Shown one piece after another: positions 15,496 to 64,000 of a DNA stretch of 64,000 nt. The DNA is from Parus major (lineage: Eukaryota; Chordata; Aves; Passeriformes; Paridae). Below the pieces are notes generated by a model that made no database searches, was not told the origin of the DNA, and was given only the letters and a program-made list of their open reading frames with translations. How positions within the stretch are numbered: the stretch's first letter is position 1; each line of letters starts with the position of its first letter. The position numbers and the translations under genes were made by a program. Where the stretch lies: the NCBI RefSeq assembly GCF_001522545.3, contig NC_031772.1, forward strand, positions 5,501,759 to 5,565,758. Reading direction: 5' to 3'.

Positions 15496-18099
15496 TTGGG
15501 GTGACACATGAGCTGGAGGGGTCTCATCTGGGCACTCCACACACTCACCAGTAACAGGAAATGCTGCTGTGGTGAAGGAAAATTAGGAAAACAACCCCAT
15601 CCTGCAGCCAGGGACTATTTTCCTACTTCTCTGTGCGAGACAAGCAGTGACATCGCTTGGGGCTCAGCATAAGGAAAAAAGAAATAAAATACTGTTTACT
15701 GAGAGAATTTTGCAACTGCTCCAAATGTCATCCTGGGTCATATTTTGCCCATGATGGGGACACAAAACCTGAGGGAAACTCCAAAGGCTGTGGAGCCCCG
15801 GGGTGCTCCCTGCGGCTCCTGCCTGGACACGGAGAGACATCACCACGTGCTGGAGAAGGACCCACAAACCTTCTGAAGGCTTGAAACTGAAGAAGGATGG
15901 AAAATGTTTAACTTTTGCCAGGAAAAAGTATCAAATGTATCCTCCTAGGATTTTTCAGACAGCTTGGTTTGGGTTTGCTTGTTGTATTATTTTGTTGTTG
16001 GGTTTTTTTTTTCCTAAAGCTGAAACTGGTTTCCTAAACAATCCTGGACAGACAAACAACTGGGGACATCACACAATTCAATACCCAAACAAAGATGAGA
16101 CCACTGGTCAAATTTTGCTGCAAATTGAGTGGATTAAACCCTTTATTTTTCAGTAATGACCAGCCACGCTGCCTGCAGAGCCCAAGAAGGTCAAGGGCTG
16201 GATCTGGCTAAAATCTCATTCCCGAGGAGCAACAACACCAGGGACCAGCTGGAACCACCACTGTGGGATTCCCCTGGGGTGATCAGTTCATGATATTTTA
16301 TTCCCCTGACCCCTGGGATCAGCCAAGCTGGGAAAGGCTCCCACAAAACAGCTCCAAATGAGAGGGATATTTTACCATAACGTTAAATAAACAAAAGCAG
16401 AGGAGAGAGAGGAGATGCTGCTGGGAACTACAAAGGGGAACTGTAAACACAACAGCAGATAAAGCAGATGGATGTTTGAAACAACCATTTGCACTGGAGA
16501 AAACACATGGGATCCGTCCCCAAGCCCGCAGGGAATGAATTTACTGCAGCCAGAAACCACGTGCTGCAGTCAAATTTCCATTTATAACCATTACCTGCTA
16601 AGCCTGAAAAACCCACAAATAAAATCCAGGGCAGCAGAAATTTGTAACATTGCAACAGGAAGAACCAAATGACTGAGGATCCCATGTGGACTGAAGGATA
16701 CTGGGAATGCTGCTGCAGGGAGCTCAGGGTGCCCAAGGGCAGAACTGCATCTGGTGGTTTTAATTTCCAGAGAATTCGGACATCCAGCACCCAAAGGAGA
16801 GGGAAATGCTTGGTCTGGATCACATCAGCCTCAGTTCTGACTCTCCTTTTTTTCTCCAGCAGAGAAAACAATTTGATTTTTATTATTAGCCTGGAGAGGT
16901 GCAGGGTGGAGGTGGGAAGTGAGTGAGCAGGGCAGGAACCAGCCTCTGGTGAGAGATCTTCTGGAAGTAGCAAAGTACAGAAACTACCAATAAAACAGCC
17001 TTATAAAGTGGATTATTTGGGAATGACACCACCATTTAACAATGGTATTTTGCTAGCAGTTCCCACTCCCCCGGCAGCACCTTCACTACAGCTTGTGGCC
17101 GAATTTTTTAATTTAATTAATTAAACCACAGCCAGGGAGGCAGGAGGAGAATGTATTGCTTTGGACCACAGTCAAATAACAGATGTAAGCACTGGACTAA
17201 TTGAGACACACTTGGCACTACTGGAATATGCCAAACTCCCAAAAAAAGCCCATTCCCCACTTCTCTTTGCTCTGCCCACACATGGCAGCTCCTCACACAG
17301 GGCTGGGATTAAAGGGGAAACATTTCACCAGTGCTGGGAAGGGATCGTGAGGTCCGTGTGTGATCCTAGAGAAATTCAGGGAATTACTGAGCAGCCTCCC
17401 CTCATTCCCAGATGCTCCCATATATCACTGGGCACGGACAGCACAGAGTCAGACAACTTTATGCAGCAAGGTCACCTTTCAAAAGGAGAAGCCACCCAAG
17501 GCCTCTTTCAACTTTTAGAGTAGAAGAAAAAAAAAAAAAAAAGAGAAAAGGAGAAAGAACATCTGAAAAGGATGAAACCCCAGAAGCACCAGGTGGAACC
17601 CCCCAAAATTCACCCCACTAAAAAACAACTCCCCGTGGCCGGAGAGAGCCGCCCGCACCTCCTGAACCTGCTTCCTTGTGGGATGCCAAAAGAGCTGTCA
17701 GTCCCGCATTCCCGCAGGAGAGGAGGGATTTCTGAACCAGCTGTGTGTGTGCAGACACAGCTCCAGCAGCAAGTCCCAACACCTTCCCCTCCGGCCCTGC
17801 TTTCTGGCCTCACCCACAGCCGTCACGGGCTCCTTGTCAGGCCCCGAGTGTTGACAAATCCTGTCCTGCACAACTCCCCACAACGGGAAGCAACAAAAGG
17901 CTGGGCTGTGCTCCTGTGGATTAGCTGCTCTCATCCCTCTAGCCAGGAGCTGTGTCTGTTCCGTGTATTCATCAGGATAATTCCTTAGCCAGGCAGAAAA
18001 CCCAGGGACAGGCGGCAACAGCCACAACAAACAGCGGCTGCTCGTCGCTACCCCGCGCTCCACGAGAGGCACCAGGAGAGCAAAAGTGCTCTTTGCTTC

Positions 18100-34347: not shown

Positions 34348-35198
34348 NNNNNNNNNNNNNNNNNNNNNNNNNNNNNNNNNNNNNNNNNNNNNNNNNNNNN
34401 NNNNNNNNNNNNNNNNNNNNNNNNNNNNNNNNNNNNNNNNNNNNNNNNNNNNNNNNNNNNNNNNNNNNNNNNNNNNNNNNNNNNNNNNNNNNNNNNNNNN
34501 NNNNNNNNNNNNNNNNNNNNNNNNNNNNNNNNNNNNNNNNNNNNNNNNNNNNNNNNNNNNNNNNNNNNNNNNNNNNNNNNNNNNNNNNNNNNNNNNNNNN
34601 NNNNNNNNNNNNNNNNNNNNNNNNNNNNNNNNNNNNNNNNNNNNNNNNNNNNNNNNNNNNNNNNNNNNNNNNNNNNNNNNNNNNNNNNNNNNNNNNNNNN
34701 NNNNNNNNNNNNNNNNNNNNNNNNNNNNNNNNNNNNNNNNNNNNNNNNNNNNNNNNNNNNNNNNNNNNNNNNNNNNNNNNNNNNNNNNNNNNNNNNNNNN
34801 NNNNNNNNNNNNNNNNNNNNNNNNNNNNNNNNNNNNNNNNNNNNNNNNNNNNNNNNNNNNNNNNNNNNNNNNNNNNNNNNNNNNNNNNNNNNNNNNNNNN
34901 NNNNNNNNNNNNNNNNNNNNNNNNNNNNNNNNNNNNNNNNNNNNNNNNNNNNNNNNNNNNNNNNNNNNNNNNNNNNNNNNNNNNNNNNNNNNNNNNNNNN
35001 NNNNNNNNNNNNNNNNNNNNNNNNNNNNNNNNNNNNNNNNNNNNNNNNNNNNNNNNNNNNNNNNNNNNNNNNNNNNNNNNNNNNNNNNNNNNNNNNNNNN
35101 NNNNNNNNNNNNNNNNNNNNNNNNNNNNNNNNNNNNNNNNNNNNNNNNNNNNNNNNNNNNNNNNNNNNNNNNNNNNNNNNNNNNNNNNNNNNNNNNNN
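34348..35198. other. assembly gap (851 N) in EDA intron 1
   Basis: A run of N ending directly in a 20-bp tandem repeat, so the gap is probably an unresolved repeat array. Confidence 0.98.
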
Positions 35199-37728: not shown

Positions 37729-40700
37729 GAGCGACGCCAGGGTCAGGAACACCGATGTGGGCACTGCTCCAAAGTGGGCACATCCCTTGTTGTAAAAGTG
37801 AGAAATGGAGACAGATCAGACACCTTGGCACCGGGAAGGTGAAATGCCAATAAGGAAACTGCTGCTCAGCACATTTTTTTTGATGACTCAGCACCTCCCC
37901 TCCCTCCCCCCCCCACCAGCTGCGAGCGCCTCCACAATTCGTTTGACAAAACCAATGGCATTTGATCCCATTCCCAGGCTTTGGCAGTTTTTATCCCTGT
38001 CTTGGGACACTCTCAGGGCACACACTTCACCCAGCATCAGCCAAAAAACAAGTTTTGGCAGAAGCGTGGCATGACACAGATTTGGTTGGAGAAAAAACAC
38101 AGGAATGTGATGCTCTGCACAGCTCAAATATTCCAATGATAATTTTTTGACAGCAAAATACGATTTAATTTTGACACAAAATCCTCTGAAGGGACACAGT
38201 GCCCTGGTGTGGATCTCCATGAGCAAAGCTTATCAGACAGAATCCCTCTCCCATCCCACAGGACACCCATCCAGAGGGATTAATCGGATTTTATCCCACC
38301 AGCCAAGGCTCCACCACTCCCCAAACCCTCTCTGACACCTCTGAGCCACTGAAGAGTCAATGAATTAAAGCAGCTCTAACAAACTCCTCATCTCGCAGCC
38401 AACGTGGTGATGCAACACCCGGCGGGTTCTGGGACAAAGATGTGGAACTACAATGCCTCAACCTCTGCCATGAAAATCTGCCCTTCCATCCCAAATGAGT
38501 TACATATTTGGATACCCTGTGAGATAGGGAAGCGGGGTGTTATCGAGCTGCCAAATCTCACTCCTGTCATGAGGTCATTTCTGGCACGTGGCCAGGTGGG
38601 GTTTCAGCCAAAATCTCAGCGCTGACCATCGCTCCCCATCCTTCCCCCTGTGCTCCTCTTCCTCCTGCCTCAGGTCAGAAAGATGGGGGTGGAATAAAAT
38701 GATTAAAAAATAAAGAAAAAAGGGTCAGGAAGGGGAGTATCTTTTGGGTTTAAGTCAGTTTCTACAATCACAACACACACAGCACTTGGCCTCTTCACTG
38801 AGGACACCTCAGCAGCTGAATGACATTTGAGGGCTCACAGCCCTGTGGTCATTGGTGCCCCCCAAATAAACCCTGGCTCTGACCATGGTCCTCAGGAGAG
38901 AAACGTCATTGATCACACCCCTTGAATTAATTATTTAGTAATTTCAGCCCAATTTATGCATGCATCACATGTATGGGATGACCCTTTGGGTTTGTCAGCA
39001 GCACAGCTCGGAAGAGCTGCCAGGAACTGCACACGCACCCCAAAGCTGGACAGTAACTTCCTAAATAAAGTTATTTGCAAACTCCTCATTTCACTGCTTT
39101 AATCACTGAAGGGATGCACTCACAGCACCCCAGGACACCCAAAGTATTTGTTTTTAGCTCCACATCGACTCAAGGCAGAAAAAATCAGTGAGAAACGGGT
39201 GAGCAGCACCACTAAAAATCCCATTTATCACACGTTGTCACGGCAGCCATTCCCAACCAGAGCAGCTCGGGATGCTCAGGCTCCCTTCCCCATGTCCCTA
39301 CTACCAGCAACCCTTGTCTCCAACCCAACTGCTTCAACGTGCCCCAAAGAATATTTCATCTCAAGCCTGACAGGCCAGATGTAGAATAAAGAAATAAATA
39401 ATTAGCGTTACCTTATCTGGAGTCCGTCAGCTGCAGCGAGCGACGCTCAGAGCTCCATCCGCATCCAGAGACAAATTATCTAACGCTGTAATTTATGAAT
39501 GCCTCAAGTATTTGCCCTGGTATTTCATTATACACTCGCTGGAAAGAAGAGCTCGAAAGACTAAACAGATCCAGCACGATAACACGAAAGGCACTCCAGC
39601 CGTGCGCTATTCCAAGGCAACCCAGGAATCCCAGCACGACATCAAACTGCTTCGGCTCACTCTGTGTTGACACTGCTCGAGGGGCAGCGAGGGGAGAGCG
39701 ATGACCCGGGAGCTCGGCTTCCCTCCGGTTCAACGCTGGACTTGGATTTATTATGGGAAGCTGCGGGATCCAGGCAGCGAAGGAAGCGCAAGCCCGCTCG
39801 GCTTTCCCGGGGGCAGCCGAGGCCGGCGCGGCGGAACGGCTCCCGCTGCCAAGTGGGAGGAAGAGTTCCAAACTCGCCGCTTTATCAAAGCTATTTTTGT
39901 CCTTCCCCCCCACACGCTGATAACCAGCAAGGCGAGGACCGCCGGGGTGCCGAGGCAGGGCTTGGCATCTCCCCCGAAACCCCGCTGCGACTCCGCGGCA
40001 AAGCCACCCCGGCACCTTGGGGGAGCGGGCCATCCGCTCGGGAGGCTCGGAGGGGAGGAAACTCCTTCCTCCAGCTTATCCTGCTCGCAGCGAGGTTTCG
40101 TGCCTGGAAAAAATGAGCTAAGTTTGCGAGCGGAGGCCCCAGCTCCGCTCCGGCTTTCCCAGAGGCTCTCGGGACAGGCGACCCCCCCGAGGGGCTGGGG
40201 ACAGCGGCGGGGACAACCGGGAGGCTGCTGCCCACCTGTCCTGCACCGACTGAGGAGCTGCTGCGGGGGGGACACCGAGGCATCACCCAAAAGGTGATGC
40301 ACTGGGCTGGGGGAGCAGTGGAATCACGAACCCGGCGCAGGAGGAGGGAGGGAGGGAGGGAGGGGAGCGAGCGGAGGCCGTGCGGGACCGGGACCCAGCG
40401 CGCACGGCGGGTGCGGGGCTGAGCCGTGCGGGGCTCCCCGGCAGCAGCACCCCGCGCCCGGAGGAACCCCGCAAGGGCCGGGGCAGAGCCGCTGCCCCCC
40501 GCCAAGGCTGGGCTGTCGGGACACACGGCGGGTCTGTCGCGACAGGGAGACGGCGAGCAGCAGGTGGAACACAGGCGGCCCCGCAGCCCGTCACCCCCAG
40601 CCCAGACGAGTTTCCCGCGCGTTTCACCCCCGCACCGCAACTTCGGGGCTTTCCCCCATTTCTCCCCCAAACTCTGCCGAGAGGCCGTCCCGCAGCGCCC

Positions 40701-40791
40701 CGCGGCGCGGCACCGGAGCGCGGCACCGGAGCCGGGGGATGGCCCCGAGCGGCGCGGAGCCCCCGGTCCCCCCGCCCCCGGCCGGACCCAC

Positions 40792-41061
40792 CTGCTGGCG
40801 CCGCTCCGCGCCCTCGGCCGCTCGCTGCGGGCGGCCCCCGGCCGGGGCTCCGGGCGCTGCCGCCGTCCCGTCCCGGCGCGGCGGGGCCGCGGGCTGCGGG
40901 CCGCGGTCGCGGCGGAGTTCGGAGCGCAGCTCCAGGTAACAGCCCAGCGTCAGGACGTGCAGCGCCAGCGACAGCGCGAAGAAGCCGAGGAAGAGCCGCC
41001 AGCTGCCGCCACCGCCGCAGGCGCAGCCGCGGGGAGCCGCCGCCCTGCGCTCCGCGCCCAT
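40792..41061 (-). CDS. EDA: EDA coding exon 1 (ectodysplasin A, N-terminus)
   Basis: This is the first coding exon of ectodysplasin A, a type II membrane TNF-family ligand that signals through EDAR/XEDAR in skin appendage (feather, scale, tooth) placodes. The 90 codons give a short cytoplasmic tail with a Cys/Gly-rich stretch (residues about 12-19), then a transmembrane segment at about residues 22-43 containing [13 protein letters not shown], then [11 protein letters not shown], which is nearly identical to mammalian EDA. The start codon at 41061 has an ideal context (A at -3, G at +4). The exon ends in phase 0 at a CAG/GTGGGT donor (intron starts at 40791), the same phase and alignment position as the mammalian exon 1 junction (…Q). 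It is about 40 codons shorter than the roughly 132-codon mammalian exon; the missing part is the weakly conserved extracellular stalk, which here is Pro/Ala/Gly/Arg-rich. The identification is secure from the membrane segment and from exon 2. The transcription start cannot be placed. Confidence 0.95.
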
Positions 41062-41159
41062 GGTGCGCTCGGGCGGAGCGGCGCGGAGCGGCCCCAGCGC
41101 TGCTGCTCCCGGGGCGCGCCGGGCACCGCGGGCTGCGCGGCCGGGCCGCCAGCGCCCCG

Positions 41160-41290
41160 CCAGGGGGCGGGGCCGAGCCCGGGGGGCGGGGCCGGGCCGC
41201 CAGAGGGGCGGGGCCTGGCGGGGCTCGGCCGGGGCAGCGCCGCCTCAGCGTCCGGGCGGGGGCGGGGCCTGAGAGGGGGAGGGGCCTGGG
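41160..41290. promoter_or_regulatory. EDA: cluster of GC boxes (Sp/KLF-type) upstream of EDA
   Basis: At least five GGGGCGGGGC-type motifs fall within about 130 bp, 100-230 bp upstream of the EDA start codon. Sp/KLF proteins are known to bind such motifs in TATA-less island promoters. The motif is seen directly; binding is inferred. Confidence 0.6.
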
Positions 41291-52440: not shown

Positions 52441-53355
52441 TGGCTCTTTTTGTCTTTTTGTTTTGCAATTCAGGCATGTCCAGTTCCCAAATACATTTAA
52501 AAATGGTAAAACCAACCCCAAATTTCATAAGCCAAACCTAATTCTTGGGGTTTTTTTGCTGAGTTTCAGTTTACAACAAGCGGAGTTGTCGACTTTCTGG
52601 GCTGAAAAAGGATCATCCTGAAGTGCTAAAAAGGCTGGAAACTGCTCCTGGCCTGGAACACAAGTCCTGGAGATGTGGAGCAGGAAAGGGTGGAGGGACT
52701 GGGCTCAGGATCTCACCCATCTCCTGCCCAGGCCTTTGAGAGGGGCTGAGAGTTTTGATAAAATCCCAACAACTTTTAAAATTTATTATTCCTTATTTAT
52801 GATCCTGAATTAAAAATGGTCCATCCCCTACTGCAGCATTCCCTCTACTCCCTTCCTCCTTCCTCACAGAGACACGTAGGGCTGGGAGGTCACCCAAAGA
52901 ACCACCAGGACCAAGAACACCCAAAAAATCCTTCCATTCCTGGAATAAAATGGACTCATGGTGGGAGCTGTGCAGCTCCAGGGCTGCTGTGATCCAGGAG
53001 CTCCGAGCAGGCTCCTTTGGTGGGAGAAAGGATGGTTTTGGGGCTGTGTGATGGTGGTACCTCCAGCTGGGATGTCCATGAGCTAACTTTTGGGCTGAAG
53101 GAGATCCTTAACATCCAACCTGAACATCAGACATGGCCCCTCCCAACTTTTCCAGCCTAGTTTAAGAGATTTGAGCCCCAGGGGTGGAAAGCCCCAGGAA
53201 AGCACAAAAAGCTGATACACAGAATTCCCTGCCTGTCTTGGGTTACAATGTAAGCTGTAACCAAAAGATAGGTGGGGCAGTGTTCTTTATCTTCCCCACA
53301 ACTCAGCCCTGGTAACTCCCTCCAGTTCACCATCACCAGCAATGGGCCACCAGGG

Positions 53356-53764
53356 TCTCACAGAATGACTTGTGAAATTACATCATCCCGTTGTCAGATG
53401 CTCCACCCAGGGGGAGGAACCAAACATTCCTACCTGGATATAATCTGAGCCTTGGAACACCATGGGAGCACTACCACTGGATTCTCAGAGGACAAGAGCT
53501 CCAAAACCACCACCAGACCTCCAGAGAAGGACCAGATCTTTTTGCAGGATCACCGCTTTGACAGAAGCCTCTCCATCACTCCAACAGGACTGCAGCCACC
53601 TTTTAATCAGACTGCTACCACCACCCTGACTGACGGGGTCAGGTCCTGCTCTGACTCTGTCAGTCCAAGCCAGTGTTTCTGTACTACTGCCTTTATCTTA
53701 ATTTTCTTCTTAAATCGTAATTCTGACTTGGAATCTCCTGCTGTTTTGCTTTCAGACTAGAACA
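53356..53764 (+). mobile_element. 5' LTR of endogenous LTR retroelement
   Basis: About 409 bp, repeated at 54562-55060 in the same orientation. The shared sequence starts at TCTCACAGAATGAC and ends CTAG(A/T)ACA. It includes a TATA-like ATATAAT at 53438-53444, conserved in the other copy. The 3' boundary ends in CA and is followed four bases later by a primer-binding-site-like sequence, as expected for a 5' LTR. The 5' boundary is less certain because a canonical TG is not visible at the start of the shared block. I cannot name the family from sequence alone; it is avian endogenous-retrovirus-like. Confidence 0.8.
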
Positions 53765-53768
53765 TTTT

Positions 53769-53786
53769 TGGTGCCCGAAGCGGGGC
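53769..53786 (+). other. primer binding site (PBS)-like sequence
   Basis: TGGTGCCCGAAGCGGGGC begins four bases after the LTR end. It has the TGG start (complement of a tRNA CCA 3' end) and the TGCCCGAA core typical of retroviral primer binding sites. The tRNA species is not identified. Confidence 0.7.
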
Positions 53787-53814
53787 ACTCCTGGAGGTGT
53801 GGCTGAGGTGTAGG

Positions 53815-54544
53815 ATGGCAGTGGTGAAGTGCAGTGTCCTCTCCTTGCAGCAAGGACTCGGGGAGCGATGGGGGAGCACCCACAGGAGAGGAAGGAGGCC
53901 TGGGGTGAGTTGGGTATGGAGAAGATGACTTTACCTGCCCGGATGGGGAAGGGTACGAAGAGGAGGATGATGACAACAGCAGGCTGTCAGCAGATGACGA
54001 TTCACAGACTGAAAAACCTGAGGCTGGTGACCTAAAGGAATTCCGTGAAGTGGAGGAAAAAGATCCTTGGGAACCGGTTGCTTCTTTTTCAGAGAGAGTG
54101 TGGAACGTGTCTCCAGATGAGATCAAAATCCCTCCTGAGCCTCCAGGCAGATGTTGTAAACAACTGCAGGATAAAATTGGTAAGTTGTATGAGAGGAAAA
54201 TGAAAGAAGGCATGGATATGAACTATATCATCCAGAAGAAAAATGAATTTTGCAACCCCAGCATCTATGAAAAACGGATCCAGTTTTGTTCCATTGATGA
54301 AACCGGTACAAATTACCCAAAGGACATGTTTGATCCCCATAGCTGGTCAGAGGATTCATATTATGAGGCACTAGCTAAAGCCCAGAAAACTGAGATGGAT
54401 AAATTGGAGAAGGCCAAGAAAGAACGTGCAAAGATTAAATCTGTGACTGACACTAAAAGGGGTACAACAACAAGCTCTGCTTCCACAACCACCACAACAT
54501 CCAGCACCACTGTGGGAGATGCCCAGAAGAGGAGGAGCAAGTGA
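53815..54544 (+). pseudogene. SAP30BP: intronless, 3'-truncated SAP30BP copy carried between two LTRs
   Basis: The parent protein (SAP30-binding protein, HCNGP) is a nuclear factor linked to the SAP30/HDAC corepressor complex and to pre-mRNA splicing. The copy starts at an ATG (53815) that aligns with the SAP30BP start codon. It then shows the acidic N-terminal region (YGEDDF, GYEEE, DDDS, TEKPEA), FSERV, SPDEIKIPPEPPGRC, LQDKI, LYERK, EGMDMNYII, NPSIYEK, NYPKDMFDPH, SWSEDSYYEALAKAQ and DAQKR. All exon junctions of the multi-exon parent are absent, so it derives from spliced mRNA. Decay: small indels in the first 30 codons put the ATG out of frame, and a TGA at 53906-53908 interrupts the frame. 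From 53909 to the TGA at 54542 the frame is open for 211 codons, with extra cysteines and other substitutions. About the last 50 residues, the 3' UTR and any poly(A) are missing; the match stops about 17-20 bp before the 3' LTR. It is probably not functional as SAP30BP. Confidence 0.93.
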
Positions 54545-54550
54545 CACGTG

Positions 54551-54561
54551 TTGAAGAAGGG
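54551..54561 (+). other. short purine-rich run before 3' LTR (candidate polypurine tract)
   Basis: The short run GAAGAAGGG directly abuts the 3' LTR start, where a polypurine tract for plus-strand priming is expected. It is short, so it is only a candidate. Confidence 0.4.
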
Positions 54562-55060
54562 TCTCACAGAATGACTCATGAAATCACATCATCTCATTGT
54601 GCGTCCCCCAGCCCTGAGGGGAGGAACCAAACATTCCTACCTGGATATAATCTGAGCCTTGGAACACCATGGGAGCACTACCACTGGATTCCCAGAGGAC
54701 AAGAGCTCCAAANNNNNNNNNNNNNNNNNNNNNNNNNNNNNNNNNNNNNNNNNNNNNNNNNNNNNNNNNNNNNNNNNNNNNNNNNNNNNNNNNNNNNNNN
54801 NNNNNNNNNNNNNNNNNNNNNNNNNNNNNNNNNNNNNNNNNNNNNNNNNNNNNNNNNNNNNNNNNNNNNNNNNNNNNNNNNNNNNNNNNNNNNNNNNNNN
54901 NNNNNNNNNNNNNNNNNNNNNNNNNNNNNNNNNNNNNNNNNNNNNNNNNNNNNNNNNNNNNNNNNNNNNNNNTTCTGTACTACTGCCTTTATCTTAATTT
55001 TCTTCTTAAATCATAATTCTGACTTGGAATCTCCCACTGGTTTGCTTTCAAACTAGTACA
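54562..55060 (+). mobile_element. 3' LTR of the same retroelement (contains assembly gap)
   Basis: Matches the 5' LTR from TCTCACAGAATGAC to CTAGTACA, with a 260-N gap replacing the centre. In the readable roughly 240 bp I count about 18-20 differences from the 5' LTR, that is about 8%, so the insertion is not recent. The gap corresponds to 171 bp (53506-53676) in the 5' copy, so the true length may differ from the N count. No clear target-site duplication is visible (5' flank …CACCAGGG, 3' flank CTGCCTCATC). Confidence 0.8.
54713..54972. other. assembly gap (260 N) inside the 3' LTR
   Basis: A run of N. By alignment with the 5' LTR it hides roughly 171 bp of LTR sequence. Open frames that cross it are not real. 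Confidence 0.98.
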
Positions 55061-55227
55061 CTGCCTCATCACTTTCTGGCAGAATCCAGGAACATTTCTG
55101 TCGTGACTTTGTCTCCACCAAGCCCTACAGGCATTCCTTTCCCAGATGCCAGCAGGAATGGGATTAGGATGAACCACAAACTGAGGGTAACCTGGGCTAT
55201 GGAACCTCATTCCCTTTGTCTCTATGG

Positions 55228-55390: not shown

Positions 55391-57165
55391 CAGGCAACTT
55401 CAACAACCCATCCCAAACCACCACATCGGTGCCACCAGAGACCAGGTGGCATCTGCAGAGCTCCACGCAGGGACACTCCATGGCCTGGCCCCACAGAATC
55501 CTGCCCAGGAGAGGCAGATATCCAGGATTTTCCCTTTATTCCCTTCCTCCAGGCGGCAGCTGAGTGTCTCCTGGCCCCGCCCATGGCCTTGAGTGGCAGT
55601 GAATGAACTGCCCTGACATCTCCTCTTGAAGCAAAGCAAAATGTGTTGAAGGAAAACCAGTTCCAGATGTTTTCCCAGTGTTGCCAAGTTACTCAACATG
55701 TTCTGCTTTAGTTGTCAGATGCTTTCAAAGCGATTTCCCTAACTCCGAGCACGAATGGTAAGGGCTCTCCCTGGGAATCTTCTGCCTGGGGCTACCATGG
55801 ATCTGTATTTTCATAAGAAAAAGACTCAGCTAATGATTAATGTTCCCCAGAGGAAGCGGGGCCTTTCTTTGGGATTTTTCTTCAGTTATTTTTAATTAAT
55901 TTGTACAACTGGCAGCTACATGAAAGTGCAAAACTCGGGAATAACGCTGGACCCAGCTCCCTTTGCTCCTTCTCTCTGCCCACACCTGGAGCTTGTGGAG
56001 ACATCACCACCCCTCATTTGTCTGGGGATGAGAAACCCCCTCACCAGGGAGGAATCACTGCTTCCCACTGGGAATTTTCTCTGAGCAAAGAGAAGTTTGT
56101 CCACTGAAGGAAAAGTTGAGTTTTACATTAAACCCAACACGGGGCATCTTCTTTAGGGAGAAGAGATAAGATCATTGGATGAAAAAGACAAAGCCCCTTG
56201 GGTTTAAGTTCCTGGTTGGATAAATCCTTTAGAGCTCATGTTTTACAAGGTGGCTTTGGGAATGTGAAAAGCATTTGGGATTGCAAAGGGCCCTGCTCTG
56301 GTGGACACAGGGCTCAGCATCCCTGGACACACAGGGTAAGGAAGCTCTTCCCCTCCTTATTCAGGCACATTCCTTCTTTATCCAAGCACACTCCCTCCTT
56401 TTCCAGGCACATTCCCTCCACTTTGAAATAAAAATAATGCCAGTGGTGTTAAGTGAGACAATGTCACCGTCTGCTTCCCGGGCTGTTCTCTCAGAGAGCA
56501 AAGCCAGAGCGCTCGGGGATGGAGGATTAGGAGGTTGTAATGTCAGACCAAAGGCAGGAATTTTATCCGACGGGCTCCTGATGATGGACTGCTCCATACA
56601 CCACTTCCAGCTGCTCCTGCTCTGGGAACAGCCTTGTCTGGATCCATTTAAGGAGACTGGCAAAGTGTTGAATGCAGCATATGGTGCCCTAAAACCACAA
56701 AACTTATTGACAGCAGCCCAGACTCGCTACAGAAAAGATCTCCTTCCAAAGCCTCGCTCTGGGAAGACTCAGCACTTTCCTTCCACTTGCAGCAGGTAAA
56801 GCCCATCCCACGCTCCCAGAGAGGATCCGCATCCCCTGTGCTCTCTCTGGCATCTCGTTCTCTTGGGAACACCCCCTGGGAGCCACGGTGTGGATCTCCT
56901 GCCCTAGAAGCCTCTTCACTCCCAGTGGATGGGGCTCAAACCTCTCCAGTAGCCACCCAAACCAGCCCAGTTCTGCACTGGCTCCACTTCCATATTCCCT
57001 GGGATGCAACACATGCTCCTGACCTCCTAAGGGAAGCCTCCAGTTGGTGTTAGGGAAAGTGAAACTGTTTCTCACAGCTCACAGGTTATCCCAGCAAATC
57101 CCTGCCTGCACGCCCTGGAGATGACTTGGGTTGTTGGATCCCACTCCTGCAGCTCTGTGGAAATC

Positions 57166-59841: not shown

Positions 59842-64000
<4,159 letters not shown>

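Follow-up and report, generated by a model that had tools for sequence, protein, structure and literature searches.

A spliced SAP30BP cDNA between two LTRs in Parus major, probably captured by an LTR element in the ancestor of oscine songbirds

Capture of host genes by endogenous retroviruses has reportedly been described in crocodilians, and retroviral oncogene transduction is a familiar case of an LTR element carrying spliced host coding sequence. The same is outlined for the maize element Bs1 (PMC5408686). In animals, LTR-mediated retroposition by template switching at short similarities was reported from mosquito, zebrafish and chicken (Tan et al. 2016, as reviewed in PMC5408686), and likewise leaves a spliced host mRNA between LTRs. 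Gene retrocopies are described as few in chicken (78, versus 4738 in human), which was put down to the CR1 LINEs (PMC3136929). The locus of Parus major described here differs from Bs1 and from oncogene transduction in that it is found in one copy in the genome, shows no PPT and contains no viral genes. It differs from the animal cases, as reviewed, in that the right junction lies inside the LTR and in that the copy is apparently oscine-wide and annotated as open in many species. The mechanism is thus already known, and the SAP30BP case appears to be new: among the best matches in the open-licence PMC literature no paper was found that ties SAP30BP to bird retrocopies or LTRs, and the main text of a 2026 survey of vertebrate retrocopies (PMC13320880) contains no mention of it.

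The window, i.e. the whole stretch of 64,000 nucleotides that was analyzed, lies on contig C5 of the searched genome (1.02 Gb). The element spans 53234-55060, and all of its parts are on the plus strand. A perfect 5-bp target duplication, CTGCC, is located outside both LTRs (left copy 53229-53233, right copy 55061-55065); it was obtained with the right end set at 55060 and the left start scanned. The 5' LTR is complete (53234-53764, 531 bp, TGTCTT...AGAACA). The 3' LTR (54559-55060) lacks the first 119 bp and contains a 260-N assembly gap at 54713-54972. The preliminary description was right about two LTRs in one orientation around a cDNA, but its 5' LTR start, 53356, has to be moved: LTR family homology in the genome copies extends upstream of that position, and the start is placed at 53234 because three family copies share the TGTCTT start together with 5-bp duplications and because CTGCC flanks the element. 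A 6-bp candidate target duplication, CATCAC, came from a scan with the start at 53356; it lies off the LTR ends, with 0.13 such matches expected by chance, and was dropped because the family copies revealed the true LTR start. As previously stated, gag, pol and env are absent between the LTRs. Rfam and tRNA scans of the 64-kb window gave no match.

The identification of the LTR family, proposed earlier as a check, was carried out by searching the genome with the 5' LTR. There were 711 candidates, and scores were obtained for 40 of them. Apart from the window's own copy, the other 39 are 75-81% identical to the query, and the family is genuinely multi-copy. Of seven copies that were fetched, three carry 5-bp duplications around an LTR starting with TGTCTT (L005, CCCAT; L006, CCTAA; L007, CAGAC), and the remaining four have no 5-bp duplication (three 4-bp matches at other starts, one with none). 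In songbird annotation, 5-bp target duplications mark ERV3/ERVL elements, whose LTRs have TG...CA ends (PMC6523648); the window element and the same three copies show both features. In contrast to the songbird ERVL (ERV3) retrotransposons, the present family is known from its LTRs alone, without an internal region or polymerase for phylogeny. With the 3' LTR side as query (40 scored of 521 candidates) the best match is the window's 5' LTR at 90%, followed by the next copy at 84%. The 3' LTR is readable in two parts, to which the 5' LTR is 91% and 93% identical, and the pair has 22 differences in 241 aligned bases (K2P 0.098). The blocks 53392-53412 and 54598-54617 diverge far more than the rest of the pair, which could reflect gene conversion with another LTR copy. 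Eight of the 40 scored copies, with equal scores, lie within about 1.8 Mb (C32:66.97-68.78 Mb, on a contig of 74.5 Mb), perhaps as an amplified array.

Relatives with internal sequence were sought by an LTR-PBS pattern with at most 2 mismatches, which gave 123 forward and 91 reverse hits versus 51 and 73 for a reversed control. No provirus of the family was present among the 20 loci fetched, and of these 20 only the window locus has this LTR. An LTR-encoded frame used as protein query returned 4 candidates and no match. Nothing was found when a viral contig collection was searched for other bird DNA. A 19-base match in a Bacteroidales record of the genome contig collection was taken as chance. 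Each of the two junctions of the element was found at one place in the genome.

The SAP30BP cDNA (53815-54543) begins with its own ATG at 53815, as the preliminary description had it, and comprises the parental exons 1-11 in spliced form according to blastn and the protein match. In a comparison with SAP30-binding protein (chain 31zn_A), the frame 53909-54544 aligns with residues 48-259 (E 5e-100), and it carries the Pfam domain HCNGP (E 1e-31). When the protein was compared with the genome, nine matches were obtained, i.e. the one retrocopy and eight exon pieces of a single parental SAP30BP at C19:6746568-6773566. The parental gene, rebuilt from its own locus, has 11 exons and a frame of 311 residues. 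Alignment to the parent, suggested earlier as a check for intron loss, showed the retrocopy to be continuous across all 10 parental introns that it spans. It includes the equivalent of the human alternative exon 3, given as residues 73-88 (PMC13324802). Of exon 11 the cDNA retains 25 nt; the last parental residue that it encodes is number 259 of 311, and the parental stop codon is missing. Residues through 259, including the cyclin-L-binding segment 98-215, are common to the retrocopies and parental SAP30BP (HCNGP family), and the 52 C-terminal residues are found in the parent only. The claim that the cDNA ends within the coding region without 3'UTR or poly(A) agrees with the A-runs of 54500-54620, none of which exceeds 3. 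When the 80 bases around one cDNA end are compared with those around the other, shared exact words do not exceed 5 bp. The 3'UTR, the poly(A) and the own target duplication of a LINE-made processed pseudogene are all missing.

On the left, a PBS-like sequence is present beside the LTR (53769-53786), as had been proposed, but the resemblance is weak: it matches 14 of 18 positions of three tRNA 3' ends, two of Lys and one of Leu, the primer expected of ERVL (ERV3) elements, with both amino acids fitting alike. For 20 tRNA strings, 10 matches this good occur on the plus strand of the window, with the three at the PBS-like site included. The 28 bp that follow (53787-53814) had been read as leader, and this reading can hold for at most half of them. 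The blastn match to parental SAP30BP starts at 53801 (C19:6746554), 14 bases before the ATG, so that the last 14 bases align to the parental 5'UTR, and the letters upstream of 53801 resemble the parental 5'UTR by eye only. Because the parental match begins at -14 of the ATG and 5'UTR-like letters lie beyond it, little or no viral leader seems to remain behind the PBS-like site. Decay has gone too far at the left junction for microhomology to be read there.

On the right, SAP30BP joins inside the LTR, and the 3' LTR is entered at LTR position 120 (54559). In the genome search with the 3' side, the best matches to the LTR family have their left limit at 54558-54561. A PPT at the purine run noted before the 3' LTR was considered and dropped, since similarity to the family sets in directly behind the run and the 5' LTR has the 119 bp that the 3' LTR lacks. 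The cDNA and the LTR are separated by 15 bp (54544-54558) that match neither the parental locus nor the seven LTR copies, where a 16-mer of the junction was absent with up to 3 mismatches allowed; at the same threshold it has one match elsewhere in the window, at 15844. By tblastn, the Oenanthe model (P0067) extends beyond residue 259 and can be aligned to the window as far as 54571. In the models of Ficedula (P0108) and Sylvia (P0023), too, the frame continues past residue 259 towards the LTR (54542-54571). Going by these three models, a short tail of non-host origin was likely present in the ancestral protein; it would lie near the place of the parental RBM17-binding motif.

The structure is probably best explained by a retrovirus-like LTR element that captured a spliced SAP30BP mRNA by template switching during reverse transcription and was inserted as a unit in an oscine ancestor, with the reading frame kept for a time and lost in Parus major. 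Ordinary reverse transcription of one chimeric RNA makes both LTRs alike. For this reason a complete left LTR, a join of the PBS-like site to the mRNA start and a right LTR beginning at position 120 are hard to obtain by the ordinary route. In the proposed sequence of events the growing minus strand, with most of the LTR copied, would have jumped from U3 into SAP30BP mRNA near codon 260 and run to near the 5' end of that mRNA; a full LTR-PBS strand made from a sister genome would have supplied the far end through strand transfer. The jump from U3 and the strand transfer would explain why viral leader and PPT are missing and why the LTRs are unequal. The host-gene capture claimed by the preliminary description is thus supported by the absence of 10 introns, of poly(A) and of 3'UTR, by the single outer duplication and by an LTR pair whose members are closest to each other among the scored copies. 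The further idea of a mobile, gene-carrying element finds no support, with one retrocopy, each junction at one place in this genome and no PPT shown.

The main rival to template switching is a capture followed, before the songbird radiation, by a deletion from codon 260 to LTR position 119 that also took away more of SAP30BP and the PPT; we infer either route, and consider the deletion unlikely though a serious contender. It would explain why only the right LTR is truncated and would restore the two like LTRs that are the standard product of retroviral reverse transcription, and the 15 junction bases fit end-joining. Host 5'UTR-like sequence beside the PBS-like site means, however, that the left side needs irregular template switching anyway, and P0067, P0108 and P0023 reach the right junction without a longer right side, which protein models are hardly able to show. 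Patching at the DNA level, with a SAP30BP cDNA joined into a break in a resident provirus so that the interior and part of the 3' LTR were replaced, would also yield one outer target duplication and a cDNA without its own, and filler bases are present at the right junction. A random break does not favor a left junction near a PBS-like site, though, and no remnant of a viral interior was recognized, which makes this origin improbable. That two independent solo LTRs surround a LINE-made processed pseudogene, the arrangement named earlier as the one to speak against capture, is hardly credible even with LTR copies numerous in the genome. It is contradicted by the one common 5-bp duplication outside the LTR pair, by the LTRs being closest to each other among the scored copies, and by a cDNA that ends in mid-coding sequence with neither poly(A) nor a duplication around it.

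The copy in Parus major is broken by a frameshifting N-terminal deletion (near 53845-53858) and by stops at 53906-53908 and 54542-54544. Its Ka/Ks to the parent is 0.30 (Ka 0.078, Ks 0.26), with 0.58 for residues to 100, 0.17 for residues 101-218 and 0.56 for residues 219-259. What lowers the value of the cyclin-L segment is mainly its high Ks (0.40, other parts 0.14-0.17) and to a lesser extent its low Ka (0.067, other parts 0.080-0.096). Ka/(Ks/2) is 0.59 with a bootstrap range of 0.35-1.03, so that the codon rates of this copy alone are compatible with neutrality. When the LTR rate is used as neutral yardstick, a Ka of 0.078 shows no constraint. The K2P distance of the LTR pair (0.098) is lower than the Ks to the parent (0.26), a discrepancy that has to be put down to gene conversion, to unequal rates or to an earlier capture.

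Two protein searches (best 120 of 808 and best 120 of 1501 matches) gave 137 distinct proteins, and 57 of these lack the parental last residues. Five of the 57 are from frog or mammal, and 52 are from 52 species that are oscine by their names. The 52 are annotated models; their number is not a rate of retention over genomes. Most of them end at or before the motif DAQKKR, short of the junction, and six extend beyond it (P0023, P0046, P0067, P0070, P0105 and P0108). No suboscine or non-passerine protein of the retrocopy form was among the best 120 of either search. In a phylogenetic tree with 11 parental proteins, the nearest a suboscine parent and none of them oscine, parents and retrocopies are split with 99/90 (bootstrap/SH-aLRT) and the retrocopies form one clade. 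Within it Dasyornis and then Pomatostomus branch first, followed by Corvides (100/99) and Passerides (92/86), which is the known order of songbird relationships. The window copy falls among the core Passerides (100/95) on a long branch. Cnemophilidae, Melanocharitidae and Picathartidae are likewise given as basal within Passerides, with the earliest splits among songbirds in the Oligocene (PMC5013600); for the insertion we infer an Oligocene date.

The evidence from the other species consists of gene predictions, aligned to the window by tblastn. Residues 1-68 of the Geothlypis model (P0105) match 41060-41254 (plus strand, 75%, E 3e-25). Residues 4-13 of the Lamprotornis model (P0071), from its first exon, match 52475-52504 (plus strand, 10/10, E 0.025), and residues 248-264 of the Corvus model (P0058), from its last exon, match 55553-55603 (plus strand, 14/17, E 0.014). 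The latter two matches are weak alone, but they are in order and on the expected sides. Residues 3-64 of a Motacilla model match the 5' LTR side (53349-53534, 69%, E 3e-22) and a C-terminal stretch of the Ficedula model matches the LTR (E 7e-13); given the many copies of the LTR, the Motacilla and Ficedula matches are evidence of an LTR next to the copy and not of this particular locus. Judged from the predicted proteins, the annotated copies of the 52 other species are likely the same copy, common by descent. The insertion likely predates the split of Corvides and Passerides and belongs to an ancestor of the oscines, because the retrocopies are one clade that tracks songbird relationships and because five models contain flank or LTR residues.

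Residues 98-215 of SAP30BP are described as the cyclin-L-binding part (PMC13324802). In the 52 retrocopies, the number of parsimony changes per column is 5.85 for residues 1-97, 2.92 for residues 98-215 and 4.54 for residues 216-259; with columns of at least 40 rows, residues 98-215 differ from the rest at p 1e-9. For columns that are also in the window copy the values are 2.92 in the segment and 4.77 elsewhere (p 5e-7). Without arginine and CpG-context columns the contrast has p 1e-6, and 10 of 12 residue types are slower inside 98-215. This slower change of the cyclin-L-binding segment, at about half the rate of the other parts, suggests constraint in other species. R110, which closes the ring around cyclin L, differs from the parental state in most retrocopies and is kept in only 3 of the 51 that are readable there (35 W, 10 Q). 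R160 is kept in 30 of 52 retrocopies, N161 in all 52, D184 in 50, K167 in 48 and K157 in 47. Forty-five of the 52 rows have at least 235 residues and none contains X. In neutral simulations at 15-20% amino-acid divergence, 7-17% of the runs were without a stop, and 1 of 2400 runs was without both stop and frameshift (with an assumed indel rate of 0.1 per substitution).

From these comparisons, the annotated copy of other songbirds may still work. It is a tentative proposal that the locus supplied a lineage-specific, virus-captured partner of cyclin L: a truncated SAP30BP, made from a retroviral LTR locus next to an EDA-like gene, that could have stayed a working gene over a large part of the oscine radiation, with a role in splicing as a partner of cyclin-L/CDK11, modified or competing, and been lost in some lineages. 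The reading frame would have been kept for a time under selection for the cyclin-L-binding part, with transcription possible from the LTR or from a nearby CpG island, and would then have been lost in Parus major. It is also possible that the copy had no function anywhere and always decayed neutrally, the annotated proteins being products of pipelines that skip frameshifts and stops. The broken copy of Parus major, codon-rate bounds that include neutrality and the label LOW QUALITY on the RefSeq models P0023 and P0070 are in line with such decay, as is the wide change of R110 and R160, the common replacements of which are one CpG-type step from the parental codons. Against it stand the rarity of open frames in the simulated neutral runs, set beside the length of most retrocopy rows, and the coincidence of the uneven rates with the cyclin-L-binding segment.

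An LTR-made copy with a target duplication, a full left LTR and a switch point internal to the LTR would be another route to retrocopies in a bird. As it is likely present in 52 oscine species, the copy offers a natural experiment that can be dated: it would tell for how long a frame of this kind remains open, and whether domestication of a truncated splicing factor is possible. Were the copy functional, cyclin L would be acted on in songbirds by two proteins of the SAP30BP type.

The window contains, at 40627-41061 on the minus strand, a first exon resembling ectodysplasin A (EDA), in which one EDA motif is matched at 27 of 31 residues; three further EDA motifs that were looked for alongside were not found. 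This exon is contained in a CpG island at 39.5-42.0 kb, and the first exon of the Geothlypis model (41060-41254, plus strand) is antisense to it. A gap of 851 N at 34348-35198 adjoins apparent tandem repeats in translated ORFs, and a His-rich open stretch is located at 59842-60288 on the minus strand.
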